A stretch of 64,000 nt of DNA. It comes from Candidatus Absconditabacterales bacterium. GTDB taxonomy: Bacteria > Patescibacteriota > Gracilibacteria > Absconditabacterales > Absconditicoccaceae. Positions 3,385-61,188 of the stretch are shown one piece after another. A program made the translations under genes and the position numbers. The notes under the pieces are model-generated. The model did no database searches. It was not told the origin of the DNA and worked only from the letters and a program-made list of their open reading frames with translations. The first letter of the stretch is position 1, and the number at the start of each line of letters is the position of its first letter. The stretch lies in assembly GCA_025057375.1 (NCBI GenBank), contig JANWWO010000002.1:1-64000 (forward strand), written 5' to 3'.

Positions 3385-4590
3385 ATGTATTATCCTCATC
3401 CTATTATTTTGGAGCGTTATGCTCGTGTGTTGATCAATTTTGCTTTGCATTGATGACAAGGGGTCAAACCAGGAGATGTGGTTTTGCTTGCTGTACCTGA
3501 GTGTGCAAGATCCTTGCTTGATTATCTGTATCGTGCGGTGATTGATGCTGGTGCTCATCCTGTGGTGAGATTGATTCCCGATGGCTTGAGTGCGTATTTG
3601 TTTGAACAAGGGAGTGATGACCAGCTGACATGGACGGCACGTCACTCGTTGTTGGGAGAAGTGGAGGATATCGATCATCGTGTTGCTATCATTGCTGATC
3701 ACGACAAATATGAGCTGGCTCATATCGACCCTAAAAAGATTATGCTTCGTCAAAAATCGATGAAATACTACAAAGACGCCCTGTTTGCTAAAGAAGATCA
3801 AGGGAAACTAACCCGAACACTCGCTTTGTATGGAACATCAAGTATGGCTGCAAATGTAGGGATGAGTCTTCAGGAATACCGAAACCAAATCATCAATGCC
3901 TGTTTTCTTGATCATGAAGATCCTATCGCTCACTGGCGTCAGACATTTTCTTTTCTCGAACACACAAAAAGCCGTCTCAATGCCTTATCTATCGAACGAC
4001 TTCATGTCCAGTGAGAGGATGTCGATCTTCGTATCAAAATTTGAGCTAATAGACAGCGACTTGGCTGAAGTGGTCGCAATATTCCATCTTTTGAACTTTT
4101 TATCTCACCTGATCGACGTGGGACCAATTGATGGATGAGATTTAACCAACCCTTGTGGAGAAATGGATCGGTAATTAAGGGTATTGTTCTTCGTTTTGAC
4201 AACGGTGTGGTAGTGGAAGCAACTGCACAGGAAGGTGAACAGTTGCTCAAAGAAATGATTGCTGTCGAGAATGCAAACAAAATTGGTGAATATAGCTTGA
4301 CTGACAGGAGGACAAGTAGAATTGATCGCATTATGGGAGAAACATTGTATGATGAAAATATCGGTGGTCTGTTTGGGAATACACATTTGGCGATTTGATC
4401 TGCCTACAAAGAAAGTTATCGTGGTGATGTTGCCTCAGTTTCTAAAGACCAACGAGATGAGCGATGATTCAATGACTCCGTTATCCATACAGACATTGTT
4501 TCTACCACAAACAGGGTCGTTACAGCGACCTTGACTGATGGTTCATGTGTCGTGATCTATCGTGATGGCCAGTTTTGTGATACATTTTAG
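3385..4590 (+). CDS. M29-family aminopeptidase (leucyl aminopeptidase / AmpS type)
   Basis: 401 residues. It starts with YPHPIILERYARVLINFAL and a VKPGDVVLLAVPE block typical of M29 enzymes. Around residue 235 it has GRNIPSFELFISPD, the family's Asn-[IM]-Pro...Glu region that supplies a metal ligand. Residues near 320 (GETLYDENIGG, then NTHLAIG) supply the Glu/His ligands and the catalytic Tyr region. Several conserved glycines are TGA. M29 enzymes are cytoplasmic, two-metal (Co/Zn) exopeptidases that remove N-terminal residues from peptides, which would suit a peptide-scavenging host-associated cell. ATG 3385 is chosen because the upstream sequence has no family similarity. An M48 membrane protease gene follows 18 nt downstream. 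Confidence 0.88.
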
Positions 4591-4608
4591 TCATTTGTGC
4601 CCTGTGTT

Positions 4609-5412
4609 ATGGTCGATTATGTTATTCCCAAGCCTTTTTCTCACAATATCAATATGCCAGAATCAACCTCCTGGCGAGAGAGTGGGCGATGATTTGCGGC
4701 GAAGATAACGTTGGGTGTGGTATGACTTTTTTTCTTATCTGCTGTGATTGCTGAGTTTGCTGCTCCTCATATTACGATCGATCAAGAACGTCGTTGGTTT
4801 GGTGGATCGTGGACGACTGTCGTTGGGACAGAATCATTTTTTACCGACGCTCTTAAACGCTCGCTCGATGATCGACTTGCCCAAACAAGCACCGGGGTAA
4901 GTGTTCCTTCTTTTCGTTTGTATGATTCTCCTCAACCCAATGCGTTTGCGATGCTTGGGTGATATATTGTCTTGACCCGTCAGTTGATCACTGAAGTGGA
5001 GACTGTTGAAGAATTGGCTTTTATCCTTTTTCATGAGCAGAGTCACGTAGATCGTCGTCATGTGATGCGTGGGTTGCTGAGAATTTTGCCGATTTCATTT
5101 CTCTTCAGCTTTGTGGGGCAGATAGATGTAGAGCCGTTGGTTCAGATAGGGAATATGATGTTTTCTCGTCGCTATGAAAAAGAAGCTGACATTGATGCGA
5201 TTATGATGATGCGTGAGGTATGACGTAATCCTGTGTGTGCGGCTGGGTTTTTTGAACGTGATGAGGGAGGTGCCTGGGATTCATGGTTTGTGTGGCTCTC
5301 TACTCATCCTTCGTCAGTATCGAGAACGGAGCTGTTGCAGAGTGCTGATACCTGACAGCCTTGTACTCCTTTGCCTGAGGAGTGGCGTCGTGCTGATGCG
5401 ATTGTGTTTTAG
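4609..5412 (+). CDS. M48-family zinc metalloprotease, membrane-anchored
   Basis: 267 residues. One hydrophobic helix lies at residues 32-48 (LGVVGLFFLSAVIAEFA). The zinc site HEQSH (HExxH) is at about residue 142 and the third ligand lies in RRYEKEADIDAIMMM near 190, so the M48 catalytic set is complete. M48 peptidases related to HtpX or BepA degrade or trim misfolded envelope proteins. Ahead of the zinc site, SPQPNAFAMLGGYIVLTRQL matches the family's Pro-Asn-Ala-Phe substrate-edge strand. The gene begins 18 nt after the M29 gene, so co-transcription is likely, and ends in a strong terminator. Confidence 0.87.
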
Positions 5413-5436
5413 TCCTCCCTTAGTGGAGGATTTTTT
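5413..5436 (+). terminator. Rho-independent terminator after the M48 gene
   Basis: TCCTCC / GGAGGA stem with a 6-nt loop (cttagt), followed by TTTTTT. It begins just after the TAG stop. Confidence 0.85.
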
Positions 5437-5448
5437 GTAGTAACAGAT

Positions 5449-5477
5449 TTGACAGGAGAAAAAAAGATGAATATACT
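5449..5477 (+). promoter_or_regulatory. Sigma70-type promoter of the UGA-rich cluster
   Basis: TTGACA at 5449-5454, a 17-bp spacer and TATACT at 5472-5477. Transcription would begin near 5484, 33 nt before ATG 5517. This rules out the ATG at 5467, which has an AGGAG-like sequence ahead but lies inside the promoter. Confidence 0.75.
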
Positions 5478-5516
5478 TGATGTGGTGTATTACCATTTTT
5501 TATCAGTATTCTACCA

Positions 5517-8500
5517 ATGCCACTGTTTCAAGAATCAACAACATATGCAGCATCAACTGAAGACCAATTCACAACAGATCTGAATAAATTTAATGATTGT
5601 TTTACCAAAAGTAATGCTATCGAAATCCGCGAGCATGCACTCTGACTTATGGCTGCGCATGAGGAGAAGATGAGAAAGTTTCTCGCAGATAGGTGAATTG
5701 ATGGAACTAGTAAATGATTTGATGGGGTAATCAAACAATCTGGTTCTGCTCGAGACAGATTTGGTCAAAAGTTGGTACAAGATATCCAAGATCTTACATC
5801 ATGAACAAAATCAATAAAATCTTCTTGACGCTGACATATTGAACCCTCACAAAGCGAAATAGTAGCAGAAGCGATGATCGAAGCACAGAAAGAAGCGATA
5901 CAAGAGATGAACAAACTCATCGAAGATCAAAAACAAGCATTGGGAGAAGCAAAAAACTGGATACATAAAATGTGAGATGCCAAAGATGGATATAAATCAG
6001 CGATGGAGAAGAAAAGCAATCCAGATGAGACATTTGTCATTGAGTTTACGGATGCATCCAAATTGCCAAAAATCCACGATATTCTTACCCCAGCAGATAT
6101 AAAATCTGATGAAAACGTCTTTATTGACTACTCAGCATGTACCAATCCTCAAATTTGAGCATATCTTACGAGACATTGAATATCGTGAAAACAAGTCCAA
6201 ATCGTTGCATGAAAACGGAATTGAGTAGATACCTATCTTCTTGTCGGACCAGATTGAAAACCAATTAATGCAAGAGCTCTTGTTCGACCATGAGTCAAAA
6301 TATTCTCAAAAAAAGCAACTGAGTTACAGAGAGAGATAGATCAAAGAAAACAAGAAGCCAGACAAGCAAAAGAAAAACCAAAGGATGTCATCAAAAATCT
6401 CAGTTGACTTAAGTATAGCTTTGAGAGTATAGAACAGGCACAAGAATTTAATGATGCAGTAGTAAACGTATTTGACGTACTCAAAGCACAATGTCGTGTT
6501 AATGGCATCACTCCTATTGATGTTCCTTTTTCCAAAACCTTTGTCTGAACGTGACATTTCCAATTTGATGGGAGAACCAAAGATGGAAAGTCGTTTGAGG
6601 TTGATCCAGTTTTTCCAAAATCAGCTTTATCAGACAAACTCTATGAGATTATTGATAACAACGAAGATGTTTTCGTATCATACCTCAATGAAAGGCGAAA
6701 CACAGAATACACCCAAGATGTCGTGGAGCGTCAGAAAGAGTGTTTTATTCCATGAATTGATATCAATCGATGATCCGAAGAGGATGCACAGAAGATGAAA
6801 TGATATCTTGATGATATTGTGAGTATAGTTATGAATGATATCGACAACAATCCTCCGGAAGATGGACAACCATTCAAAGTTAGTACCGCGACCTGATGAG
6901 AAATTTATTATGATGGGAGCAATAACCAAGATTTTCTCTATGATGATGAAGAAATTGCGACATACTTTAAAAGTAAGTGATTTGATATGAGTGATGATAA
7001 GCTCAACAAAAAACTTTGTGACTATCTGAATGCTGAATTTGCGAAACAGCACCTTACAGTCACATGAAATGAAACACTGACAACAAATAAAGATGATCTC
7101 AAGAAAAAAATACAAGCAGATGGGAATATGGTATGAGTATGAATTAATCAACACGAATACAGAGATCTCGCAATCATGGAACAACAAGACTATAATGCAC
7201 TCATGGAAAAATTTGATATAAGCAAAGCAGCAGACTACCTTTCGCTCTATACCCATGATCAAGCACTCAAAGAGTGACAAGGAGACCTCAGACTTGAGCG
7301 TCTCAGGGCTGTCGCTGACAAGATGATAGCAACAAACCCTGATCAAGCATTCCAGACTTTCCTCGCGCTTCACGCTCAGTATGATGCTGAAAAACATCCT
7401 GACTCAGTTTATTTTATTCTCAGACAGTTTACAGGACATTTTTGACAAAAACTTGCTGATGTACGGAAATGAAAAGGACAAACGATTAGTACAGAGAATC
7501 AAAAAAAACTTTTGTCACTTGTCCACTTGGTGACAGGGAGAATGGAAGATATGAAAACAACATATATGAAACTTGCTCTTGCCATGCACACATGATTATC
7601 CATGCTCTGTCCAACATGAAAAAAACCATGAGATATCGACGATGATCTTCGTGATCTAGGACTTGCACAGTCGATCATGGCAGACCTCATGCCTTGAGTT
7701 ATTGATGCAGCGAAAACTGATTTTGATGCACAACAAAAAGCTGAGTTTGAAAAAAACAAATCTACACTGACTGCATATTTTGGTGATAAGATTTCTCTGT
7801 GATGAATAGAAACAGTAAAAATAGATGAGATTGATCGGTCAAGGTTATCATTCCAAGAAAAAGCAGCATTAACTGCACATATAAAGTATGTAAAGAGATT
7901 TCCAACAAAACCAAGCGAAGATACAGAACTGAAAGACAATCCAAATTTGCTCAAAGAAAGAATCTTCCTCCTTGCATCTCATGCTCAAGAAGATTTGATG
8001 GCATGATTTGCCGATTTTATTGATGACTGAGTTGGTGGAAAAAATCTTGAATTACAATGACTTAACAAAGAAATCTACGACACCTATACAGATATGATAG
8101 GAGCATGATGGTTCAATCTCAGTGATGAGAATGTTACCAAAGCAGTTGAGGGTAGTAAAATGGCGTGAGTGATCGTCGTTGCTGTCGCTGCATCGTTTGC
8201 ATCAGCATGACTTGCAACATGACCAGCATTGGTTTCAATATTTGCAGCTGCATGATGATCAATCGCATGATTTACGGCTGATATGCTTATTAACCAAAGA
8301 CAATATACATCACGGGAGTGAGTGGCCAAAGATTTTTTCTCTACGCTTGCTACAGATATTGCAACATCAGGACCGTTTGCATTGGTGCCATGAATTTGAC
8401 CCCTGTTAGCGAGAATACCCAAACTTGGAAGCATCTTTAGACCAATTGCCCGCACTATAGAAATCGCAGGAAAAAAATATAATACTGCAGAAATTCTTGT

Positions 8501-8585
8501 TTCCTGAGTGATATCATGACAAGCAGAAGCATTGAGACAAGAATTTATTATGCATCAAGATCTCTCATTTGAACAAATCATCTAA
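5517..8585 (+). CDS. Large UGA-rich protein of unknown function with C-terminal Gly/Ala membrane segments
   Basis: One uninterrupted table-25 frame of 1022 residues; the standard code would break it about 50 times. There is no signal peptide. The first 250 residues are rich in Lys, Glu, Gln and Ala, and the stretch around residues 120-160 looks coiled-coil. The middle is charged, mixed alpha/beta sequence with no motif I recognise. Residues about 885-935 form hydrophobic Ala/Gly-rich segments (VVAVAASFASAGLATGPALV and the segment after) that could insert into a membrane. By hand count about two thirds of its glycines are UGA, against about a fifth in tex. It opens a cluster with a coiled-coil protein and a PG-binding protein. 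Secreted cargo, a surface adhesin and a phage-like structural protein are all possible. Confidence 0.8.
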
Positions 8586-8600
8586 CAAATATGAATGGGT

Positions 8601-9986
8601 ATGGCTGTTCCGCTTGCTATAAAACGGTGACCACAAGTTCGATCCAAAATTTGAGTAGATAAGCTCAAAGCAGGCGTTGATGAAAATATCAAAACATGGA
8701 ACGACGTACTCAAAGACAAACAGCTCACATCACAGGAAAAAACAATGCTTGAAAAGATGAAAGCGGAATATATGTGATACAAAAAACAGCTTGAACAATT
8801 CCAAGCGCTCAAATCTGAGTATGAGGCGAACCAAAAAAAACTCACTGACCTCACTGAGGAGTTGCAGGCAAATCTGAACGAATGGCCTACAGCGTCAAAA
8901 AGACCTGAAGTAGCTATTCTCAAGGATATCGCTGATCTCGAGGCGAAACAAAAAGAATTGGAAGGAAAGATTGGAGAGATAGAACAACAACCAGCAAGAT
9001 GACAACAAGCAACAGATAAAAGTCAACAACCATGATGAGCGAATGAAACAAATCAATCATCAAAACAAAACGCAGAAAATCCACATACTAAAATTGAAAC
9101 ACAAGCAGATGTTCCAAATCTTGTGAAACAACTTGATGAGATGAAAAGTAAACTCAAAGAAATTCGAGCTCATCTCGGAGAACTTGATGATTGGTATGAC
9201 CAAATAGAAAAATCGAATATGCTAAAAAACGACAAAGACGTATTGCAACAACAAATTGAACATGCACATCAACGACGAAGAACCAAAGAACAAGAACTTC
9301 TTGCGAACATCAAAGCACTTGAAGAAGATCAAACAAATCAATCATCAAAACAACAATCTGAATCACCAACTCCCCAAGTCGAATTGTCACCACACACCCC
9401 CAAATGATTTGACGACTATATGAAGATCCTCGATACAGAGATCTCATTTCTTACGAAGCAACTTGATGCACAAAAACTCAAGATTGATCACTTCATCAAT
9501 CGTCTGCCTGATGTAGAAAAAAGACAAACCAAATGACTATGGGATAAGATGAAAAGTATTTTTGATCGTCTCAGGACTGGGGAAACAACAGTAAAAGAAC
9601 TTGACGATGCAATCAATGAAGCAAACAACAAAGCAAACAAGTCATCAGAAAGGCTCAAACAAGCATGGGAAGCGATCAAAAATTTTGGTATCACCATCAA
9701 AGAATTTTTGGTATCTAAAGTATCACTCAAAAAAACTCTCAAAGACGCAGAGGCTGTCAATGAAAAGACTGATTCATCTCGCCTCAAGCAACTCTCAGAC
9801 AAACTCAAGGCAATGAGAAAAGGGGCATCAGATGCGATGAAAAAGCAAATTGATCACATCAAATTATATATTGACTTGTTTTATGTGCAACGTTTACTAA
9901 AAGTTGCATCAAAAATTTCACCAAATAAATATCTTGAGGCAAAAAAAAAGGAATTGGAAGAAAAGATTGGAGAGATAGAAAAATAA
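8601..9986 (+). CDS. Coiled-coil protein of unknown function
   Basis: 461 residues, beginning 15 nt after the preceding stop. Most of the chain is charged helix with heptad character: residues about 40-145, 170-260 and 290-460. Two low-complexity Gln/Ser/Asn linkers separate the helical blocks (NQSSKQNAENPHT and NQSSKQQSESPT). Internal duplication is visible: LEAKQKELEGKIGEIE near residue 115 and LEAKKKELEEKIGEIE at the C-terminus. No catalytic motif, signal peptide or membrane helix is seen. The gene sits between the 1022-residue protein and the PG-binding protein, so a structural partner role is plausible but inferred. Confidence 0.8.
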
Positions 9987-10216
9987 CAACAAGCACAATG
10001 AAAATAAGCCAAAAATCAAAATGAGTAATCATGATAAGTTTGAAATGTTGATATTAAAGCAGATGCTTCAGATGCAAAAGTTAATATTGGAGATGCACAT
10101 AAATAATGAAAAGCTAGAGAACAAGAACTTCTCGAAAATATCAAAGTTCTTGAGGGACAACAAACACCAAAATAAAAAGCAGAAACAACACATCCTCAAC
10201 AAAAATGTTGAGATAA
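9987..10216 (+). pseudogene. Decayed duplicate of the coiled-coil gene's repeat
   Basis: In the same frame after the TAA at 9984-9986 the sequence still resembles the coiled-coil gene. REQELLENIKVLEGQQTP (near 10117) mirrors KEQELLANIKALEEDQTN (near 9287), but several TAA codons interrupt it, at positions where Gln or Glu would fit (CAA or GAA to TAA). Best read as a tandem copy of the repeat that lost its reading frame. Confidence 0.55.
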
Positions 10217-11266
10217 ATGGATTTGTTATCAGACAAACAAACAAAAAATATACCTCCTGAACGTGTCAAAGAGCTTCATACACATGTATACAAAACAGAG
10301 ATTGTTCGTGCTTACGAAAGATTATCATCACTGCCTGATTTTAGTATCTTTAGACAAAAAAAAGCGTTTGAAAACTTTTACAATGCAACACCTGAAACTG
10401 TCTCCAAATACGATGTTCAGTGGATGCAAGCAGAATTGTGAGTTCCTATCGACTGAGTCTTTTGACCCAAAACTCGCCAAGCACTTGATGCATATATCAA
10501 TCAAAAATATAATGAAGGAGCATTTGAGCCTAAAAGACCAGATGCAGAAACTACACCTCCTCGTGAGCAAACACCAGAGTATCAAGCGAGACAACAAGAC
10601 ATTGAAATTGCTTTTGCTATCAATGACGTCAAACAAAAAATCAGTGGATGACAAATGGATGACTTGTTTCTTGATCTATCACCAAGAAGACTGGCACAGC
10701 AGGTTGATGTATGAGATGTCATTCGCTCAAACGGAGAATCATATTATGTGCTAGAATCAGGAAATGGATCAGTCAAAATGGTAGATATTGATAATCCTAA
10801 GAAAGAAATAACTATCACTCGTGAGATCGTCAAAGCAAGCATCAATGATCCAAAATACAAATACCAAATACTCAAAAAACAATCAATTGAAAATCCACAA
10901 GAGGCATGAGAACTCAAACAAAAGATTGACAATGCAATCGGAGAAAGAGCTGGTGCACTTGCAGGCATGTACAAAACAAATCCTGAGAAGTTTTTATCTA
11001 CACCCAAAGAATGACCAGAATGAAGCAAACTGGATCCGAATGTCTTGGAATTGGCTATCAAAAATCCAGACGACCTTTGAGTTAGGCAATCTGATATTGA
11101 TAACGCATGATGAGAGATGCCAGCAGCACAAAAAGCGATGATTGAACAAGCAGTCAGAAAGGCATTTTTTTCCAAAGAAGCGGTGTGGACTGCTGTGTGA
11201 GTTACTGCAGTTGCGTTAATTGTATGATGATGTACCATACTTGTCAAAAAAGATGACGATGAGTAA
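10217..11266 (+). CDS. Tail-anchored protein with peptidoglycan-binding-like motif
   Basis: 349 residues. Residues about 67-91 (QWMQAELGVPIDGVFGPKT, then RQALDAYI) match the PG_binding_1 consensus Leu...Gly-x-x-x-Asp-Gly-x-Phe-Gly-x-x-Thr-x-x-Ala-Leu. The remainder is charged. Residues about 318-342 are a single hydrophobic helix (AVWTAVGVTAVALIVGG) followed by Lys-Lys-Asp-Asp-Asp-Glu, which fits a C-terminal tail anchor. There is no N-terminal signal, so the topology would be mostly cytoplasmic unless the cluster has its own export route. ATG 10217 gives the first frame free of the decayed repeat upstream. It is the last gene of the UGA-rich cluster. Confidence 0.75.
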
Positions 11267-11398
11267 AAGAAAGAACCTGGGCAGTCTCTCTCCCCCGTTA
11301 GTGAGGATTTTTTTCTTTTTCTCTTGCTTTTTTGGAAAAAATATATACTATAGCACCAAAATGAATTTGATGCTATTTTATTTTTTGATAATACCAAT

Positions 11399-12442
11399 AT
11401 GGATTTTGATCCACAAAAAAATTATTATGAGATTCTTGGCGTAGACGAAAACGCTAGTGAGGATGATATCAAAAAAGCTTTTAGAAAACTTGCTGTCAAG
11501 TATCATCCTGATAGATGAGGAGATAAAGAAAAATTTCAAGAAATCAATGACGCACACCAAGTCCTTTCAGATCCACGCAAACGCCAACAATACGACGCGA
11601 TGCGCAAAGGTGGCTTTGGGTGATTTGGCTGAGGATGATTCCAAGTAGACTTTGGGTCATGAGGTGTTGATTTGGGTGATTTGATGGGCGATCTGTTCGG
11701 AGTCCAAACGTGATGACGCGGTCGTGGAAGACAAGATGGGAATGATCTTCAAATTGGGATGTCGATTAGTTTTGAGGAAGCTTTTTTGGGCTGTGAAAAG
11801 ACAATCCAGGTTTCTCGTATGCAAAGAGTTGCTGGCGCCACCAAAGAAACCTGTTCTACGTGTAAAGGAGCAGGTGTGGTTCAGCAAAAAGTCCAAACAC
11901 CTTTTGGGGCTATGTTTGCTCAAGCATCTTGTAATTCGTGTGGGTGATCAGGAAAAATTTTTACCAAAGATGGGAAGCGTTTGGCATCATGATGACTCGA
12001 AAAAGTCAACACTGATGTTACAGTTAAAATTCCTGCAGGAATCAAAGATGGTGTATTTATCAAATACGCTGGTAAAGGAGATGAATCACCAAGTGGTGGT
12101 GAACCAGGAGATTTGTATATAAAAATTACCGTCCAACCCTCTGATCGTTTTATTCGTCAGTGAGACGATTTGCATGTCAAGGTTGATGTCACTGTGTTTG
12201 ATTTAGTACTTGGTGGAACCGTGCGTATTAATCATCCAGAATGACCTCTTGATGTCACTATCCCAAAAGGTACTCAAGTGACGTCAAAAGTGAAGGTTGC
12301 AGGCAAATGATTTGGTGATAAATGATTTTTTGCAAAAAGGGGTGATATGTATCTCATTCCAATTCTTACGCTTCCAAAAAAGCTTTCTCGTGAAGAGGAG
12401 CAGTTGTGGGAACAACTCAAAAAAATAAACGGTTCTGCATAG
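11399..12442 (+). CDS. dnaJ: Chaperone DnaJ with a shortened zinc domain
   Basis: 347 residues. The J domain (residues 1-70) has NYYEILGV and the HPD tripeptide in YHPDRGG; a Gly/Phe-rich linker follows. The zinc region has only two Cys motifs, CSTCKGAG near residue 151 and CNSCGGSG near 178, whereas canonical DnaJ has four CxxCxGxG repeats and two zinc centres. The C-terminal substrate-binding beta-domains are present ([28 protein letters not shown]). DnaJ delivers unfolded clients to DnaK and stimulates its ATPase. With one zinc site left, disulphide or holdase activity may be reduced (inference). The gene has its own upstream TATACT box at 11344-11349. No dnaK or grpE is in the window. Confidence 0.93.
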
Positions 12443-12454
12443 GCCGTTTTTTTT
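12428..12454 (+). terminator. Terminator overlapping the dnaJ stop codon
   Basis: AACGG / CCGTT stem around the stop codon, followed by T8. The short stem makes it moderate in strength. Confidence 0.6.
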
Positions 12455-12588
12455 GTTGGTTGATACTCATGCATGTGTCTGTAGTATATCTTGAGCTTGC
12501 ATTTCCCCCAAAAAATCCTAGAACAAAAGAAGAGAGATGATAGTGTGCTAGGTTGCTATGTCTCATTTTAGTCCTGATAATATCGTTG

Positions 12589-25652: not shown

Positions 25653-27764
25653 ATGGAAAAAATATATGATTCATGTACTGAGTCTTTTCAGCAAAATATG
25701 TCATTGTGAGAGGCAATACAGGATTTCAAAATGGATTTAGCTGCTTTAGAACAGTCTATTCTTCATAATCAAGGGAAAGAGGAATCCAATGAGTCGTGAG
25801 AGAATAATTGGTACAAAAAGATTGAGGAAAGTATTGCAAGCGAAAGATCAACATTCGCATGACGAGTGACTGTAGGCAGAAATGCTACAGAACGTTCTGC
25901 TATTTTTGCTGAAAAGAAAAAAGAGTTTTTGTCTATGATGCAGACGTTCATAGACAAGGGGGATTTCCCTTATTCTCTTTCCAAGAAGGATCGGATAACC
26001 ATCAAGAACAATGATTTTTTTCGTAATAGCAATTTATCGACGAACTAGACCTTTCAGTTCTTATATAGATTACGGTATATTGAGAAAACGGTTGAGCAAA
26101 GACGTGAGATTGGTCACAGGAAGATGGAACATATTAAGCAGTCGTGTGAGAATTTGCGGCTCAAGCTTGCTAATCCTCAAGGAGAGGAGCGTGATTTAGA
26201 GAATGCGAGACAAGATATTGGACAGTTATGGCAAAGAATGCAAACCATCGTACAAGATACTGGGAAGCAACGATGATATGCTACGGTATCAGTAGATTTT
26301 CCTCAGTTTGATCACAAGAAAGCATCATACACAGACTTGATGGATGTTCTTGGGATGCTTCAATCTTTTCCTCAGAAATTTTTGGATCAAGTATTACCAA
26401 AAAGTAGAGATGAATACGGAAGGATGTATGAGGAGATGAAAGTTCCTATGTTTCATAATGTTGGAGATCCTTTGGTATGATGATACCACAAGGTTTCTTC
26501 GTATGACAATCTTTTTGTGCAGGTTGACTGATGGGAGAGAGAAAAAAATACATATACTATTACAACAGAAAAAAGAAATCTGACATGAAATGGTATTTCA
26601 AGTGACCCACAAACAAGAAAATACTTTTATCCATCGCATTTACCTCAATATGTTGTTACCGGACTATTCCCCATTCAGAGAACAATTCCTAGTGATTTTA
26701 TGAAGAAACAGTATAAAGAGTATATCGGAGCCCTACAATCTCGTAAAAGCGAGCAGTTTCCAGATGCATTGATTGGTGCAAAGATAGATGTTTGTGCTCC
26801 AAATAAGTTCCAAGATGATATATGGATATCGTTTATGATAAATACAAAAGATGTATGGCCACACATTCCTGTTGTAATGGGGAAAAGATTGACGACTGAT
26901 GAGGTTCCACTAGAAAAAAAAGTCGATGATGTTCCTCTTTCGTTGTTGATTTCTGATCACAATGGCTGATATGTTCTCAATCCTCAGATTAAACCTGATG
27001 ATGTTGCAAAGTATCTTGCTGGTAAAATTCCTTTAGAGTCATTTTCATTGCCTGCTGGCGTTTTTGCTGAGTTTCTGCCACAGTACGAACAGATGCGTGC
27101 GAGATACAAATACAAGATGAATCAGTATCAGCCATGAACATTGACAAAGATGTTTCGTGAATATCTACGTTTTTATGTCCCTTCTCAGGAGCCTCTTGTA
27201 CAAAATACTGTTTCAGACAGTAAGCCATGAAAGATTACTCTTTCCCAGCAGCTCTCAGTTGATTCACAAGAATCATCAAGAGAATCCCTAGCATCTCCTG
27301 GTGGGACAGTCGAGCAGGTATCATCAGAAACAACGGAATCAATACGTGTTAGGACAATGCAAGAACTTACTCCTCAAGAAATACAACAGTATTATGGTGC
27401 CAATGAGCATATGAAAAACCAAATTACTCTCAAGACTATGTCTATAAACTGACAAAAGTTTTTGGTTTACGTGCCCCCAGAATGAAAAAAATGCTCTCCT
27501 GTTGCTGATTCTTCACTTCTTCTGAATTTTTTGGACAATCTATTGAAACAGTATAGCCCAGCTGAAGTTCAGGCATTGATATGATATCCGCAGCATGTCG
27601 TGCAAAAAATTGTATGACAAAGCAGAGAAGATCCAGACAATCTCAAAAAATATAAGTTTCATCTTCTGCCATTACCATCTGATAGTACCACGCTTGTTAT
27701 CGACGGAGAAAGTATTCTATGAGTGAGAAAGGGTTATAGTACGAAGCTTGCTATAGCATATTAG
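25653..27764 (+). pseudogene. UGA-rich protein of unknown function, interrupted by one in-frame TAG
   Basis: The frame spans 703 codons from ATG 25653 to TAG 27762 and is open except for a single TAG at 26046-26048 (codon 132). Both sides read as one protein: a charged helical N-terminus, then after the TAG more helix (RYIEKTVEQRREIGHRKMEH), a beta-rich middle and a Ser/Thr-rich linker near residue 540. No motif is recognised and there is no signal peptide. Alternatives are two separate genes (the second could start at an internal ATG near 26133), amber suppression, or a sequence error. It has a good promoter and a terminator, so the locus is probably transcribed. Confidence 0.6.
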
Positions 27765-37616: not shown

Positions 37617-40305
37617 TTATTCTCACGATTTTTTCTCATATACTGTTCGTTCGATCGTTGTATCGTCACGACGTTTTACATAGACTCTCAGTGTTTTCCC
37701 AGGAACAAAAAGCTTTCTTCGCTCGTCTTTGGGGAAGTGGTCGATGATCTCGGATTTATGTAAAAGTCCGACGCTATCTTCTACTTGGATCATACAGCCA
37801 TAATTTTTTGTATGGACGATGGTGCCGATATACGGAGTTTTGTATGCGAGCGGGATGCGTCATGGTCATGAGGTTGGAATTGGTTTATCAACGGGATCAG
37901 GTGTTCCGGTAAGACCAAAATCCATATGTCATTCTTTGTGTTGAGTGGTTTTCTTTGTTGGTGTGTTTTTTGAGCGAGTATGAGGTTGATTGCGAAGAGT
38001 TTTTGTCGTCTCTGATGCAGGGGATTGTTCTGATAGAGGTGTTGTTACTTCTTTTTTACGTGCTTTGCTCTGAGTGGTGGTCTGTGAAATGAGATGATCA
38101 GATGATTGTGTGGAAGTGTTGCGTGAGATTTTTATTGTTTCAGGTTGTTTTTGTGTTGTTTTAGAGTTTTTGGGCTTTTCTTCTGTTTTTTTGACTGCGA
38201 GGGTTGATGGTGACGAGATTGTGACATGTGATTTTTTTTCAGACGTTCATCATATTGCTTGTGGTGTGGTTTGTTTTTGTGTGTCTGACGACGTAGTGGT
38301 GTTGTCTCTGCGAGGTGCTGCATACTGTTCACGTGTTTGTGCAATGATTGCTTGTTTCATCTCTTCGTTATCTGGATGTGTGACCAAGGCTGTTTGCATC
38401 ACAAAAGGGGCAAGAGGATTGCCCTGTATTGTTAATTTTGCATAAGCACGAAATTTTGGAAGGGACAGAAAATCGTTTGCGAGTAATTCATGCCCAAATT
38501 GATCAGCAAGGATACGAGCATCATCAATGCCAACGGTAAATGCGATCATCGATCCAATATTTCCAAAAATTGCTTGTTTGATCCCATCAGGGAGTTGGGA
38601 TGTGTATTGATGTGCCATGATGAGAGCAAGTTTATATTTTCTTGCTTCAGAGAGGATAGTCACAAAGGAATCATTCACAAAATTTTGGAACTCGTCAATA
38701 TAAAGGGCAAAAAACCTTCTCTGACTGGCATGTATGTTTGCTCTTGCCATTGCGTCAATTTGTATTTTGGTTGTTATCAGACTTCCTAGTAGGTTGGCAT
38801 TATCTTCCCCTATTTTGCCTTTTGAGAGATTGATCAAAATGATTTTGCCATTATTCATTGCATCAGCCATCACAAAATTGCCTTGTTCCGTACCAAGGAT
38901 AGCTCTGATAATTGGGGAAGAGAGACATTGTCAGATCTTGTTGGTGATAGGTCAGATGGATTCTTGAATTTGTTTTTCACTCCATTTCCCAAATTCATTG
39001 ATCCAAAAATCTAAGAGAACTTCATCACGAACATAGTCTGATACAATCATCGTACGAAATGCTTTGTCAGTCAAGATTTTTTGGACAGAAAGCATCGTGG
39101 CACGCGGATATTCTATTACTGATAAAAGCACATTTCTTAAAATATACTCAAGTCTCGGTCATCGGGAGTTGGAAAACAGTTTGGCAAAAGTGGTCAGGAT
39201 TCCTGATGCTACGAGATTTTTTTGCTCCTGTGTTTGATATGAAAAGAGAGAAAAGGGAATAGGGTTGGCGGTATCTCCCACATCATACCAAATTACATCC
39301 TGGAGACGATGAGAGGGAATTTTGCCTACAATGCCTTCGACAAGCTCGCCATGAGGATCGAGGACACATAGTCACGCACCATCAGCAATATCATTGAGAA
39401 TCAGATTTGAAAGCAATGTTGATTTTCCTACTCATGTTTTTCCCACAATATAGAGATGACGACATTTGTCTTCTTGACTCAACCCAAAAGGACGGGAGGG
39501 GTTTTTTATCATCTGTATAGCCAATAATTCCTCCTTGATGTGTTAAAGATAGTGGTGCAGGTGGTTTTTTGTAGCCAATAGTAGCCATATTTGGTAAGGT
39601 GAGACCTTGTGGAAGGTGGATGAGGGGGGTGAGTTGATCAAGAAAAACGGGGACTCGCTGGCGGCGTGTTCCTACTTCGATAGATCACGATTGGATAATA
39701 GTGCCAAGCGAGGTTGTAAGGAGTGTTTGGATATTTGATTTATTGATTTGCGATCATTGATAGGAAAATCCAATGCTTACAAGACGACGGGGAAGAGAGA
39801 AACGAGGATCTTCTTCGGTGACCATATTGACAGTACGATTGGGTGCACGAAAAAGGAGAGTATCAAGAAACGATCATGTGTCTACTTTCGTCTCAATTCG
39901 GACGATGAGTGTATCCGTTTCAGGGACACGATCAAAGCATAAGAGGAGTTGATTGAGTGGATTGAGTCCTGTTCCTGTGCTATACTGGTCCATGGTGCGT
40001 CGCATGGTGCCCGATGACCAATGAAAAAAAGATTTGGGTGTTTGGGGTTTCTGTTTTGTTTCAATAACTTGCGCATAGGGATACAAACTATCAAATCAGA
40101 GCAAAAAATTTGATACTGACGCAGAGGGGAGTGCGATATTACAGGTGAAGGACTGTTTATTTCCTACAAAATATCGATGAGCAGTCTCAGCATAGCCATT
40201 GATTTGAGTCAGGAGTGCGTGTGCCTGAGCTCGTCCATGATCATTAGTAGGAAGAGGAAGGAGGCTAAGATGATGCATGCAGTTCACTGATGAGAAGTAA
40301 AGCAT
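37617..40305 (-). CDS. TraG/VirB4-like conjugation ATPase with C-terminal S1 domain, apparent frameshift
   Basis: From ATG 40305 the frame covers an N-terminal domain of about 265 codons to a run of six A at about 39511-39516 (minus); the rest continues in the next frame to TAA 37617-37619. The joined protein is about 895 residues. The second part has Walker A GKTGVGKST, CVLDPHGELVEGI, and Walker B ALYIDEFQNF, with a DUF87/TraG-like order, then FGNIGSMIAFTVG. After a Pro/Thr/Lys/Ser-rich linker of about 120 residues, the last 60 residues form an S1-like OB fold (IGTIVHTKNYGCMIQVEDSV, then GLLHKSEII). Such ATPases drive DNA or protein transfer in type IV secretion-like systems. The frameshift may be a sequence error, slippage, or a true break. 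Confidence 0.75.
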
Positions 40306-51566: not shown

Positions 51567-52775
51567 TTACCTAAAATACTGACACAAAAAATCAGCACGT
51601 TCATGGGCGGGGATCTTGACAAAGTCCCACATACGAGCAAGTTTGGTCAGTCGATACTCTTGCATGGGTCATCAGGTGCGGCGGATCATATGTGCGTGGA
51701 GGGAAACATCGCCTTGGTTTGCTGTCATGACGGCACGAGCAGGCTGTCCGTCTCTTCCTGCTCTCCCTGTCTCTTGGTAGTATGCCTCAATTGATCTAGG
51801 CATGGTATAGTGATAGACTCGTCTGATATCATGTTTATCAATACCCATTCCGTAGGCAATCGTTGCAATCATCACCAAACATTCATTGCGACGAAAACGT
51901 TCATCATTACGTTGACGAGTCTGAGTATCCATCCCAGCATGGTACCCAAGACAGGATATCCCATGATGATGTGCAAGCGCAAGGAGAGAATTGACGCGCG
52001 CACGACTTCCACAATAGACAATCCCTGAGTCTGTGACTTGAGAAAGAAAGGTTAGGAGGTGTGCGTTTTTTTTTTCTCCTGTAATGATATCGAGGCTTAG
52101 ATGTGGTCTGATGGCAGGCGCATGGTATTCCCAGACATTTGTCAGTCCAAGTTGTTTGATGATATCAGCACGCGTCATAGCATCTGCAGTAGCCGTCATC
52201 GCAATAAAGGGGACAGAAGGAAAAAATTTTTTGTAGACGGTGATTTGATGATATTCTGGACGGAAGTCATGTCATCGATGGGATGCACAGTGCGCCTCAT
52301 CGATCACAAAGGAATGGATCGTGACGTTACGCAGGAGGGTAAATATCTCATTGGTTGCAAACTTTTCTGGAGAAATATACAAAAATGATACTGACTCTTG
52401 TCTGATATGGTGTTTGATGATAGTTTGAGTATGGATGTCTTGCTGGGAGGTGAGACAGGTCGCACGAATACCATACTGACGGAGCGATATGACATGATCA
52501 TTGATGAGGGAAATAAGGGGAGAAATGACAACACATAATCCTCCTTGTATCAATGCAGGAAGTTGAAAACACAGTGACTTGCCTGCTCAGGTCGGCATTG
52601 TCACTAAACAATCACGTCATGACAAAATCGCCCTGATGACATCTTCTTGACCAGGACGAAAAGAGTTAAAATTAAAATAATGATGGAGTGCATCAATCAT
52701 ATGGTCAGTATACAATTTTTTTTTCTCTTTGCAATGTCAAAGTTTTTTGTTTTCTTCTTCACTCAAAATTTGCAT
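51567..52775 (-). CDS. recQ: Short RecQ-family DNA helicase
   Basis: 402 residues. Motif 0/I FRPGQEDVI and MPTGAGKSLCFQLPAL, motif II VIDEAHCASHRGHDFRPEY with the RecQ aromatic-rich loop, motif III FIAMTATAD, and motif VI YQETGRAGRDGQPA are complete. The chain ends about 60 residues after motif VI, so the zinc/winged-helix RQC and HRDC domains are missing or minimal. RecQ unwinds 3'-5' in recombination repair. TCA on the forward strand gives the expected glycines. ATG 52775 includes a short charged leader; ATG 52700 is an alternative. Confidence 0.9.
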
Positions 52776-52825
52776 TGGGTCTTGGTTTTTTTTATACTCA
52801 CAGGGAGTATATTTTAGTTTGGTCT

Positions 52826-55666
52826 ATGTGGATGCCTAGATTATGACTGATTCATCGAATAATATGTGGTTTGTGTGCACTGATTTTTCTCGCTGATCCT
52901 GTTTTTGCGATCAATGTCTCATCCCAATCAATGGAAACATTTGCCAATGAGTGGATGACGCTGTTGCAAAGTATCCTCAAGATTATCTATATCCTTATGC
53001 GACCTATGCTCGTCATTGCAGGGAATGCATTGGACAATACTTTTGTGTATGGTGAGTTTATTAATCTTGATGCTCCCTTGTTTCAATTACGATTGATTAC
53101 GAGGACCTTTGTCAATTATGCCTTGGGTGCGTATGTGTTGTATGTGATTCTTAAATATTATTTTACTGATATGTCGGGGAGTGCGTGATCAATTGTTTCT
53201 GAAATTGGGAAAGTGGTGTGAGTTGGTGTTGCTGTCCAGTTTAGTTGGTTTTTGATGGGTGCATTGATTGATATTTCAACTATTTTGACGTATGGATTGT
53301 GATGATTGCCGATGACATTGATTCAGCAATCTGCGATGGGAGACAAACCCATCATTGGTATCCAGTCAGTTATTGATCTAGGAGGTGCAAATCGCACAAC
53401 GGAGATGAAATCGTCCTTTATGTATTATTATTCACGAGGAGAAAAAAACTATCCAGCGTGTGAAGTTTACAAATGATTTGTGATTGGGGCAAGAATAAAC
53501 GATGCAGCGACAAAGAAAAAAATCGTTTTTGATGACAATCGATGCTTATACAATATGCATAGTATGGTCAACATTGAAGAGATAAAAAAATCTGCATGAG
53601 CAAAAGTTGATGCACAAAATAATACCTGGATCACAAGGAATCAAAAGGCACAAGAGGCTGTTGAGTCATTTTTGGCCTGAAAATGAAATGAAAGTATTCA
53701 GTGAATTGTCTATACACGCTTTACCAACCAAGTGAATGGAAGAGCGTTGCCGTCATGATGGTACCATTTTGGGCAGGAGAGTGTTGGGTGAGTTGTTAAA
53801 TCACGGGAAGCGTTTGTTGAGGATGTCTGTCCAAATCCGAATGTTAATAATTGATGATGTGGTTTGTTTCTCAAAGATCTTCTCGAAAAATCAAGAGGAT
53901 TTGTATGACCATTGGTGACGATGTATGTTTCTTTGCTCAATTTTGCTGATTTGCATCAAGCAAGTGTTTGATGAGGAGCGTGAGGAACCAATTACGCTCT
54001 TTTTCTTCAGTTTTTTCTTAAGGCTGTCGTAGGGCTTCTGCTTTTTATTCCCTTGATTGGATTTTGTGTTGCTTTGGTGATTAGGGTATTGCTTTTATGG
54101 ATTGTGATAGCATTTTCTCCTTTGTTTATTTTTATGAAATTTGGTGGGTGATGGTGAGAAGGAATGCAAGGAGGATGGAGTCAGATATGATGATCAGAGA
54201 CGTGGTTCCCTATAAATAAACTTGATGTTTCATCTATTCTCGGATTGATTTTTAGTCCTGTGATTGTTGTTGCTGCATTGGGCATCTCTCTTCTCTTTCT
54301 TCAAACACTCCAAATAGCATTCAATGAAAGCAATAATGTCAGGATTTATCAGTCTATGAATATCGCACTCAATCCATGACAAGGTCCAGCAGAGGATTGT
54401 TTTTCTATTCGATGACTCACTGATATTTGTATCAATGTCGGTGAATTTAGTGGAGGATGAGATATTTTTCTCAATCTGTTTTCATGGTTGATTATGAATA
54501 TTTTTGGGATTGCGATTGTGTATGCATTACTCAAAACTGCGGTGAGTTCTTCAGGTTTGATCGGTGGTGCAGCTAGTGCCGCGATGGAGAGTGCCAAGAC
54601 TGTCGCAAGTACCTTTGATTTTGGGACCAATTGGAGTTTGGCAAAATTGCAAGGCGCAGCACAACCATTGATTGGTACATGATCATCATCTTTGTATCAG
54701 AAATATATTAAAGATCCGGCTGATAGGGCAGCGAGAGCAGGACGAGACATTGTCGAAGATTGGATGGATACTAATGAGGTAGAGACTGCAATCGAAAACC
54801 TCAATCGTGGTATGAATCCTAATAGTGCTATGATTAATGCGTTGAAAAAAGCCAACAAACATGGCAGAGCATATAATCCCGATACTGATCTGTCATTATT
54901 ATTGACTCAACATTTTTCTGGACGTTGAGATAGGCTCAATGGTGACGCAGTCAAGCGTTTGGCTCAAGCGTCAAATGTTGATGAACTCATCAAAAAACTT
55001 GAGGATACATCGTCGTCTCAGGCAGATAAGAAAGCAGCTGCACAAAAGCTTCAGCAAATACGTGATATCATTGCATCGTCAGCGAGTGCCGGGTTCCAAA
55101 AAGCACAAGCACGTGGTGTTAGTGGAAGAGATTTGGATTTACTCCAATTAAAAAATAACCAAGATATTGAAACGATTATGAATCAGTTTATCTATGGAGG
55201 AAATCCTGCGAAAAAGGCAGATATTGATTATCTTCTTGCCAAATATGGTTGAACATCTACTCGGCCAATTGTTACGATAGGACAGAAAGCATATACCAAA
55301 GATGATCTCGCTAATATAGCTGACTATGCGTGATGGAATACTGTTCTCGATGCAAACGAGACCAAACAGATTACTAATCCTGTCAACAAAAAACTACTGA
55401 TTGATGCATATATTGCGTTTCTCAAGGGAAAGTTTGCTCAGTTGCCATGAATATGAACTGCAAAACAAGATTTTGTTGATTTTGTGAATAAACATCAATT
55501 TGGGAAGATTGAGACGCAAGGAACAAATAAGTCTTCAACACTTGGTACTGTGCTCTGACTACAATCTTTGCAGCTTGCTGATTATACAGTGATGAAGACT
55601 GAGCTAGAAAAGAAATGACTAACGATTGATCAGAATTGACAAGTCCGTATTAGTCCTCCCTCGTAG
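52826..55666 (+). CDS. TrbL/VirB6-like polytopic membrane protein (1)
   Basis: 946 residues. Signal peptide at residues 8-28 (IHRIICGLCALIFLADPVFA). Several transmembrane helices follow (near residues 45-65, 95-115, 140-160, 390-440, 470-500, 555-575). The block VYGEFINLDAPLFQLRLITR near residue 75, the Asn-Tyr-Ala-Leu-Gly that follows and the Phe-Leu-Met-Gly-x-Leu-Ile-Asp-Ile-x-Thr-Ile-Leu near 140 are shared with the next gene. The long hydrophilic C-terminus (about 350 residues) is helical. TrbL/VirB6 proteins form the inner-membrane channel of type IV secretion systems; assignment rests on topology, the paralogous pair and the TraG-like ATPase 12 kb away. About a third of its glycines in conserved blocks are TGA. 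Confidence 0.65.
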
Positions 55667-55726
55667 CAGTCACCTCTTCAAGTAATCAGATCAGACCTCT
55701 GTCGGTATTTTATTTTTCCCCCTCGT

Positions 55727-57610
55727 ATGAAACTTGTATGGATAATATTGCTGTGGATAATATATTTATTTCCTACATTCTCGTTTGCGGAGGATCAGGC
55801 GACGATTACACCCTCGATGACTACCAATGTCATTCACTTTTTCCATATAATAATTTCACTCTGCTCGTGGATATGGATTATTCTTGCCTCGCTTGCTGGG
55901 AAAATGCTGACCAATACCATCGTTTATGGTGAGTTTATCAATCTTGATGCTGCCTTGTTCCAATTGTGGAATATTACTAGAACATTTGCAAACTATGCTT
56001 TGGGTTTGGTCATTTTGTATAAGATTCTTCGTTATATCTTCTCTGATCCTACCCAGAGCAGTCCCATTGATATTACTAAAAGCATTGGATGAGTGGTTGT
56101 GGGAGGGATAGGAGTTCAGTTTAGTCGGTTTTTGATGGGTGTATTGATTGATATTGCAACGATTTTGACAGTTGCGATGGGGGCTTTACCAACACTGGTG
56201 ATCACCAACGATGGCCCTATGCAGCAGTATCTTGCCCAACAAACCATCAAAATCCCCAAAAAAATGGTTATTAATCTTGATAGATCACTCGATCAACCTT
56301 TGTCAGATTTTATATTTCCCAAAGATGGACAAACGACAGCTGATGGTTCAGACATGCAAGAGCTTGGTATGACAGAGTTTATCGATAGATTGATCCCCAA
56401 TGCCTGAAATGCCTGATGACCACTCTTGTATATCTGATTGTCTGTTATCCATGCTCAGAATTATCTTGCATGGACACCCAACATGACAAAAAATGATGTG
56501 ACTGACGCAATTGTCACGATTATGATCAAAGCATGATTATTGATTTTGTATACGGTAGCCCTTTTTCTTTTGGTGGTGATCAATGTGATGAGGACTTTGT
56601 ATATTTGGCTTTTGATAGCGATTTCGCCATTTATTGTCCTTTATGCTGGGATATCGATGATGGAGATATCTGTGTGAGAAAGTTTCAAAAAATTTCTCGA
56701 TCGAGGAGAGGCGCTCAAAGCAATTTTTATGCCTGTTGTGTTTGTGGCCTATTTAGGATTGATGTTGGTGATGATTGTCACGATGCAGAGAATGATGGTG
56801 ACTAACGAATGATATGCGTTCAATAATTGATCCGTTTTTGTAGAGGGAGATAGAGTCTGATTTGCAGGAAGTTCCTTTACCCTAGAGGGAGAGCTATGGC
56901 CCAATGCCTGAGAGGATGCAAAATCAACCATTACCGATCTCTTATTGATGATTTTTACTCTGCTTTTGATGTATGGACTTGTTTATTTGGCAACGAGTCG
57001 ATGACCACAATTTATCGTTGATGTTGCAGCAAAAGCTCGTACAATAGCAATGACTGCACTAGGCAATATCCCGATCTGATGATGATTGACAGCGTGATCC
57101 GCATTGAAGTTGCCAGGACAGTTGTATGACCAACAAATGAGATTTACAAAAAATCTTGTTGATAAACAGATGACAGCGTGAGAGAAAGAGGTAAAAAAGT
57201 TTTTGAATGACAAATTTGGTATAGAATTGGGATGAACATTGGACAGAGTTGCTGTGTCTAATCTTGAGAGAACTATAAATTGATCGAGCAATACAAATAG
57301 TCTCAAACAAAACATGAATATTACTGATTTTTCTTTTTTATGAGGAACACCTATTGGGCAAACAAAACTTTTGGAGACGATTTATAAACAACAATATTTT
57401 TATGACTTGGTGAATACAGAGTTGAAACGGGGCAATAAATATAAAAATCTTTATGATACCAATAAAGATAAAACCTTGTCAGATTTTGTGAATGGTATCA
57501 ATAACAAGAGTGATCAAAAAGCATTCCTGTCACGATTTGCAACGTCGTTATGATATACACAAAAAGCGGTAACGACTCTTGAGCAACTAGAAAAGATTAC
57601 GAGCTTTTAG
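55727..57610 (+). CDS. TrbL/VirB6-like polytopic membrane protein (2)
   Basis: 627 residues, paralogue of the preceding gene. Signal peptide at residues 2-21 (LVWIILLWIIYLFPTFSFA). The shared block is VYGEFINLDAALFQLWNITR, followed by the Asn-Tyr-Ala-Leu-Gly pattern and VQFSRFLMGVLIDIATILT. Further helices lie near residues 245-262, 268-320, 340-365 and 410-430, then a 180-residue hydrophilic C-terminus. It starts 60 nt after the first paralogue, so the two are probably co-transcribed. A channel or scaffold for secretion is inferred. Confidence 0.65.
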
Positions 57611-60480: not shown

Positions 60481-61188
60481 CTAGTGTGCAGGAAGTGCAA
60501 AGACTTGGACTCGGATGGTATCATGTCTCGCAACTCATCGGTGGGTCATGGATGGATTGAGCATATTTGCTCTATGTCAGGGACTGTTTCGGAGTAAGTC
60601 AAAGGCTTCTTCGGGATCACGTGTATTGGCAAGATTTTCTGCTACTCTTTGGAAACGATATCCTGCATCACGCACTCTGTCGGTCACTTTTTTTCCATCT
60701 GGTCAGGTATGAGAAAAAATTTGTGCTGTGACCAAGGTTTCGGCATAGGATTGAGCAACGCTTGTCAAAAGAGGATTGAGAACAAGGGTAGGTGCTCAGG
60801 CTGCACGTCTACGTTCATTGACCAATCACATCATCGTAAGGATATGAGGAGGAAGTGGTGATTCGGGAGGAGGGCTGATCGGTGGCGTTTGTCATGTTCA
60901 GGGAGGAGAAGTAGTCAGAGCAAGGTGATGGTGGGTAGCGACAAGCATCAAAGCAAGGAGGCGACGTCTTGCAGGAGAGATACTGGGTCTGGATTGCATC
61001 TGTTTGATGGCTTGTCTGAGGGTAAGAAGATAAGACTGACGCTGGTCAGGTGGTTGACTGGCTACGAGGTTTCCTATGGTTGTGATGAGAAAGGCTTGGT
61101 TTGGATCGGTCGGTGATGAGTGGAGGGTGGATGCAACTGTGATGCTCACAAGAAGGATGCACCACAGAAACAATCGTCGTTTGGGCAT
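60481..61188 (-). CDS. Secreted CAP/SCP-domain protein
   Basis: 235 residues. Signal peptide at residues 5-22 (RLFLWCILLVSITVASTL). A helical spacer and a Pro-rich linker (PPISPPPESPLPP) lead to a CAP domain in the last 130 residues: LVNERRRAAGAPTLVLNPLL, then AQSYAETLVTAQIFSHTGPD, VAENLANTRDPEEAF, and NSPGHRANMLNPSMTHRGVA. The His and Glu of the CAP cavity are present. Bacterial CAP proteins are extracellular, with roles in sporulation, host contact or lipid binding; none is proven here. It lies directly upstream of xth. Confidence 0.88.

Follow-up and report, generated by a model that had tools for sequence, protein, structure and literature searches.

The giant proteins of Vampirococcus lugosii and Strigamonas methylophilicida are described as membrane or signal-peptide proteins with adhesin-type domains (PMC8080830, PMC13059738). 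Little is understood, at the molecular level, of how Gracilibacteria that live as epibionts or predators break into and exploit a host. The locus described here lies in a 64,000-nucleotide (64-kb) stretch of a genome of Candidatus Absconditabacterales bacterium (assembly GCA_025057375.1, contig JANWWO010000002.1, positions 1 to 64,000; hereafter the window), which is read in genetic code 25, with TGA as Gly. Between positions 5,449 and 11,266, three open reading frames (ORF1, ORF2 and ORF3) follow a putative promoter, and a first-pass annotation had taken them for a cluster of three proteins. The shared frame of ORF1 and ORF2 and the degenerate linker ahead of ORF3 are best read as the marks of one ancestral giant gene of about 1915 codons, now lying in three adjacent pieces. 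ORF1 belongs to a family of proteins, hereafter the zipper-core family, whose members share a core, lack a hydrophobic segment at the N-terminus and vary in their C-terminal tails. We propose that these proteins are giant carriers, whose membrane-inserting core and wall-binding modules would present or deliver the variable tail to a host, a proposal that we hold to be evenly poised between right and wrong.

Membership of the zipper-core family was defined by the core D-[IM]-x-G-x-G-x-F-[DN]-x-[SA]-D and a Gly/Ala hydrophobic segment after it, which ORF1 carries at residues 859-906. The C-terminal Gly/Ala membrane segments that had been noted for this 1022-residue protein correspond to a hydrophobic, probably membrane-inserting segment at residues 881-906. 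Among 34 core sequences, the D and both G of D-x-x-G-x-G are near-invariant, together with two later Gly; the hydrophobic segment was found within the core of all 18 members tested, directly after the motif wherever the latter was recognised. None of 36 family members has a hydrophobic N-terminus, nor does ORF1, ORF2 or ORF3, in agreement with the earlier remark that signal peptides are missing here. A search with ORF1 detected G011 (E=2e-11; N-terminal 120-454 and core 776-1016), G025, G041 and G023, the G023 stretch being set aside as lying in or beside a helicase gene. Pairwise E-values of ORF1 with four giant proteins ran from 1e-10 to 8e-7, and an N-terminal domain (ORF1 residues ~177-262) is kept among relatives in the same taxonomic family (E=1e-10 in G011, 3e-8 in G025). 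At the level of the class, a five-sequence core profile (A1) recovered 17 of 242 genomes, among them G075 (E=1e-27) and G191 (E=6e-13), an 18-sequence profile 38 of 234, and a 34-sequence profile 47 of 226, mostly with a single copy per genome; the family thus extends to at least 47 of 226 class genomes. Every core match in two samples of the phylum, of 379 and 361 genomes, fell within this same class, which also serves as a control, since it indicates that the hydrophobic segment alone yields no matches. The named members (Peribacteria, UBA4473, co234_bin65), taken with those that use code 25, point to the GTDB class Gracilibacteria as the range of the family. No name for it was found in Pfam, NCBIfam, PHROGs or PADLOC, and query P0001 returned no relatives from GTDB contigs or IMG/VR. 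The suggestion of something undescribed and lineage-specific is supported in so far as ORF1 belongs to an unnamed family restricted to the class. Conservation of the cluster holds in part: the ORF1 core is class-wide, and ORF2 and ORF3 had no match in 48 other genomes of the taxonomic family.

The reading as a single split gene can be followed from the junction of ORF1 and ORF2, which is colinear, in one frame and broken by a single TAA (...SFEQII-TAA-QIGMGMAVPLAIKRG...), at the position where a paralogue in the same genome reads SLEAMISEMGPLMGIMAAMKL. This paralogue, an unsplit ORF of 1731 residues (G000:C14 69774-74969) situated 60 kb away, holds the complete core in one polypeptide, whereas in the window copy the core is interrupted. 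Core profiles A1, A2 and A7 match past the TAA, reaching 8606-8624; as the window sequence before the stop is itself a row of the profiles, only this extension is informative. An unbroken core that includes the last helix is a usual trait of the family, not a required one, and some members stop just past the core. Recoding of the TAA was considered and dropped, since other genes of the window end at TAA in the usual way. The linker between ORF2 and ORF3 is a decayed duplicate of three segments of ORF2 (57 nucleotides at 88% identity, 81 at 75% and 56 at 66%). The ORF2 frame reads onward through it as EIEK*QQAQGK*AKNQNE*SG*VGNVDIK...AHK*GKAREQELLENIKVLEGQQTPK*KAE, with asterisks for stops, and the alignable linker stops all stand opposite CAA or CGA codons of the ORF2 copy. 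Of seven in-frame stops, six are crowded into the stretch from 9984 to 10173, within 77 of 1916 codons (4% of the length; clustering P=3e-8), while the 1834 codons of ORF1, ORF2 and ORF3 are free of stops. Because stops would be dispersed if the entire gene had decayed neutrally, the three ORFs are probably still retained as separate frames around a dead linker. Chance open frames are excluded by their lengths, with P ~4e-25 for ORF1, 9e-12 for ORF2 and 5e-9 for ORF3 in random DNA of the same composition. A second copy in G011 (875+741+609 residues) was rejected as a repeat of the three-ORF layout, since its 609-residue gene, judged by eye, resembles glucosamine-fructose-6-phosphate aminotransferase, while its 741-residue gene has no similarity to ORF2. 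The 741-residue protein, which follows the second core gene (L093 11383-13608, +), has a thioredoxin-like CxxC part by eye, and Pfam gives it no clear family.

The intact paralogue makes it a live alternative that the window copy is a dying relative of the 1731-residue gene and yields no functional protein. The in-frame TAA inside the conserved core, the frame shift and the six linker stops agree with such decay, as does the presence in the window of another locus, at 25653-27764, interrupted by one TAG. The crowding of stops into the linker, the survival of three open frames and of a promoter-like site, and the short relatives that naturally finish just past the core all argue for retention instead. 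We regard decay as a serious possibility, though one from which we lean away, and it would agree with any function of the family.

In contrast to the N-terminus and core, where identity between distant pairs is 0.25-0.51, the C-terminal parts reach 0.19-0.31 with many unaligned columns. Calpain (Peptidase_C2) tails in G041 (E=1e-9) and G096 (E=2e-5) both exceed the Pfam cut-off and have the Cys and His, the third residue being Asn in G041 and Asp in G096. The tail of G098 is a J-domain (E=6e-12, HPD present) and that of G179 a family-2-type glycosyltransferase (E=3e-5 to NCBIfam HpnI, 0.002 in Pfam). Weak matches were obtained for M91 in G105 (E=0.003, HEMGH), HopA1 in L102 (E=0.0035) and OmpA in G071. 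Since chance matches at E ~0.002 occurred in the same searches, the firm assignments are calpain, the J-domain and probably the glycosyltransferase. The pattern of a conserved N-terminal part with a variable C-terminal domain holds for the family; the window tail, ORF3, has no recognised enzyme. Two giant proteins, in G174 (L088 6852-11450) and G216 (L094 8691-13265), are near-identical over about 1350 residues, with 94-100% identity except in the first comparison window and in a tail cassette. This cassette of ~180 residues holds small beta repeats in tandem and is only 26-28% identical, which suggests its replacement or rapid diversification.

Beyond the core, the window copy carries a coiled coil and a candidate wall-binding module. 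ORF2, previously given as a coiled coil of 461 residues (its length from the second ATG), consists of K/E/R/D/Q for 43% of its residues, and its hydrophobic autocorrelation peaks at lag 7, the signature of a heptad-periodic coiled coil; matches to SMC, Rad50 and Zorya-type coiled coils were put down to coiled-coil resemblance. The tail anchor and the peptidoglycan (PG)-binding motif attributed to ORF3 are both present, the latter as a sub-threshold match to PG_binding_1 (16.4-19.2 bits against a Pfam cut-off of 23; E=0.0014 at 19.2 bits, in a segment search). ORF3 is also the best non-seed sequence outside the family for the PG-binding-like (E=0.0015) and SH3-like (E ~1) profiles built from other members, a ranking that is partly circular since the seeds of the PG-binding-like profile were chosen by eye for the motif. 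Tails resembling the ORF3 anchor were seen by eye in G026, G105 and G071, and in the core operon of G057 a separate gene has a PG_binding_1-like match (E=0.003).

A zipper-core protein is made without a signal peptide and comprises a long helical N-terminal region, then the conserved core with its Gly/Ala-zipper hydrophobic segment. In many cases there follows a coiled coil with PG-binding-like and small beta modules, and at the end stands a variable module, which may be a calpain protease, a J-domain, a glycosyltransferase or another domain. Most likely, the N-terminus and core would form a carrier and a membrane-insertion platform, the PG-binding part would fix the protein to a cell wall, and the tail, by analogy with a polymorphic effector set, would act on the host cell during epibiotic attachment. 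Effector-like proteins that act at the host envelope are, on the available sequences, the likeliest explanation of the family. Several observations weigh against it. Most tails are unassigned, and in many of them no domain can be recognised; neither J-domains nor glycosyltransferases are particular to toxins, and the M91, HopA1 and PG-binding matches lie under curated cut-offs, at E-values that unrelated chance matches also reach. Most genomes hold a single copy, unlike toxin arsenals. Pfam and NCBIfam scans matched no trafficking or secretion domain, although such an absence is no proof; no immunity gene was identified, no systematic search having been made, and the downstream neighbours vary. 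The AlphaFold model of full ORF1, from six sequences, reached a predicted local distance difference test score (pLDDT) of 40, was useless and was not used, and the hydrophobic core is of low confidence in the model of the G041 homologue as well.

A rival explanation is a surface or attachment scaffold, in which the giant protein would help to build the envelope or the zone of contact with the host, its coiled coils and PG-binding parts gripping the bacterium's own wall, its core in its own membrane and its C-terminal domains accessory. The low copy number, the tail anchor and PG-binding motif, the multi-gene operons of large proteins that family f14 conserves and the giant surface proteins reported in Vampirococcus and Strigamonas (PMC8080830, PMC13059738) are all consistent with this. 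Those published giants, however, have signal peptides or transmembrane segments and adhesin domains, whereas zipper-core members have no N-terminal hydrophobic segment, domain searches of family members found no adhesin domain, and enzymatic tails fit poorly in a scaffold; we judge this explanation rather unlikely. With regard to the operons, short members stop past the core, and those of family f14 and of G017 share operons with further large genes. The run of giant genes to which the core gene belongs is conserved in family f14 (L086, L095, L096, L036; about 1030-1310, 940-1290, core), and several of these runs have a small hydrophobic protein and a 520-880-residue protein downstream, with no clear Pfam names.

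The model of the G041 homologue shows a confidently helical N-terminal half, predicted as an all-helical solenoid. Together with the missing export signal, such a predicted solenoid would also suit a helical scaffold inside the cell, or a cytoskeleton-like protein, that has nothing to do with the host. This we find improbable in view of the PG-binding-like motif, the conserved hydrophobic core and the variable enzymatic tails. Fold comparison returned generic helical repeats, designed proteins and VPS35 only, and as the best Z of 11.6 is below the ~13 advised for helical repeats, no fold family was concluded; the core profile gave only insignificant matches to PDB sequences (E 0.2-0.9), MakA and an N4 gp53-like protein among them, which were not used.

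Phage tape-measure proteins have a similar general make-up, with a long coiled coil, a hydrophobic segment and a peptidoglycan-binding domain, and a protein injected by, or measuring the tail of, a phage or mobile element could be the source of the locus. ORF2 has a weak, non-significant PHROG tail match (E=0.15) in line with this. The neighbours are housekeeping genes, namely an M48 peptidase gene, dnaJ and tex in the window and queA, rsmH, tgt and ribosomal genes in relatives; 50,697 phage records and pattern scans of IMG/VR gave no match, and the viral collections searched held no match to a phage structural protein, which the earlier annotation had named as a result that would refute its view. 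A phage origin is the least probable of the explanations considered, and we give it very little credence. The carrier reading stays our preferred one, and the features of the locus are collected in the table.

Table. Features of the split zipper-core locus, in window coordinates.
Feature	Position	Strand	Basis
Terminator-like hairpin and T run, closing the upstream M48 peptidase gene	5411..5432	+	
Sigma-70-like TTGACA-17-TATACT, putative promoter of the unit	5449..5477	+	11/12 consensus match
ORF1, 1022 residues, 50 TGA; N-terminal helical and beta region, then hydrophobic-core domain	5517..8585	+	
N-terminal domain, residues about 177-262, KIHdiL..IDYS..RALVRPGVKI	6045..6302	+	alignment A4
Conserved core domain, residues 803-1022: DMIGAGWFNLSD motif, then Gly/Ala-zipper hydrophobic segment	7923..8582	+	profiles A1, A2, A7
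Core motif DMIGAGWFNLSD, D-[IM]-x-G-x-G-x-F-[DN]-x-S-D	8091..8126	+	
Hydrophobic Gly/Ala segment, residues 881-906, probable membrane insertion	8157..8234	+	hydropathy
In-frame TAA between ORF1 and ORF2, within the last conserved core helix	8583..8585	+	
ORF2, 463 residues (461 from second ATG), 8 TGA, frame of ORF1; remainder of core helix followed by an internally repetitive coiled coil	8595..9986	+	
Linker, decayed duplicate of ORF2 segments 8935-8991, 9043-9098, 9255-9335	9987..10216	+	TAA where ORF2 has CAA/CGA
ORF3, 349 residues, 14 TGA, shifted frame; C-terminal modules of the giant protein	10217..11266	+	
Peptidoglycan-binding-like motif VQWMQAELGVPIDGVFGPKTRQALDA in ORF3	10415..10489	+	PG_binding_1 and PG_binding_3, sub-threshold
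Candidate SH3/KOW-like module GDVIRSNGESYYVLESGNGSVKMVDI in ORF3	10709..10792	+	profile from other members, E ~1, weak
C-terminal tail anchor, then KKDDDE, in ORF3	11189..11245	+	top 19-residue hydropathy 2.22 at residue 325

The promoter placed ahead of the cluster is the top plus-strand match within 4500-12500; since the window holds six promoter-like sites this good against 2.5 expected, it is plausible, not exceptional. Downstream of ORF3 lie dnaJ (11399) and tex (12553), both named by eye. TGA makes up 66% of the Gly codons in ORF1, 47% in ORF2 and 64% in ORF3, against 30% in 13 other genes of the window (Fisher P of 8e-9 for ORF1, 0.002 for ORF3 and 0.18 for ORF2). As this share runs from 6 to 82% across the giant-protein family and several members use the standard code, UGA richness reflects codon usage and is not the feature of the system that it had been taken for.

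The same style had been seen to recur at 25653 and 63081. Size and style are shared, but a related system is not supported: no similarity to ORF1-3 was found, and the proteins had no relative in 58 other genomes, which leaves them as unrelated orphans. At 25653-27764 (+), ORFs at 25653-26048 and 26124-27764 share a frame with a single TAG at 26046-26048 between them and form a second large orphan gene interrupted by one stop. Just past the window end, a 798-residue ORF (L010 4641-7037, -) starts with tandem NGVFVPA repeats, and similar C-terminal domains, CAP/SCP-like by eye, occur at 60481-61188 (-) in the window and at L010 6974-8551 (-). Large proteins with multiple transmembrane segments at 52688-57610 (+) and 37617-39524 (-) resemble, by eye, VirB6 and a VirD4/VirB4-like ATPase, so that a type IV secretion system is possible in this genome. 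A coupling-type ATPase stands near a family gene in G041 only, and no relationship of the family to such a system is claimed.

In a broader and more tentative view, which we think somewhat unlikely to hold in full, Gracilibacteria would possess undescribed Sec-independent giant polymorphic effectors, usually with one membrane-inserting, wall-binding carrier per genome and an interchangeable enzymatic tail delivered into prey or host. If true, a family that spans the class, keeps its core fixed, lacks an export signal and swaps its enzymatic tails would supply concrete candidate effectors, and the identity of the tail could be compared with the type of host. The split copy illustrates how a giant gene can break into operon-like pieces. 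The polymorphic-toxin and calpain literature for this lineage does not describe the zipper-core family within our coverage, outside which most subscription journals lie. Compared with polymorphic toxins and large secreted effectors, the family likewise conserves its N-terminal part and core while its C-terminal enzymatic modules vary (calpain; candidate M91 and HopA1), but it has no known trafficking domain or identified immunity gene, its N-terminal part has no database match, and it occurs mostly as one copy per genome. Bacterial calpain proteins (PMC4631099) are matched by the Peptidase_C2 tails of G041 and G096, although in this family calpain alternates with several other tails at the end of a giant carrier, and the window copy is without it. 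The giant surface proteins of Vampirococcus and Strigamonas are likewise very large, come from the same broad lineage and are thought to mediate host contact; the zipper-core family differs from them in having neither an N-terminal signal nor adhesin domains, and in carrying instead a conserved hydrophobic core with swappable tails.
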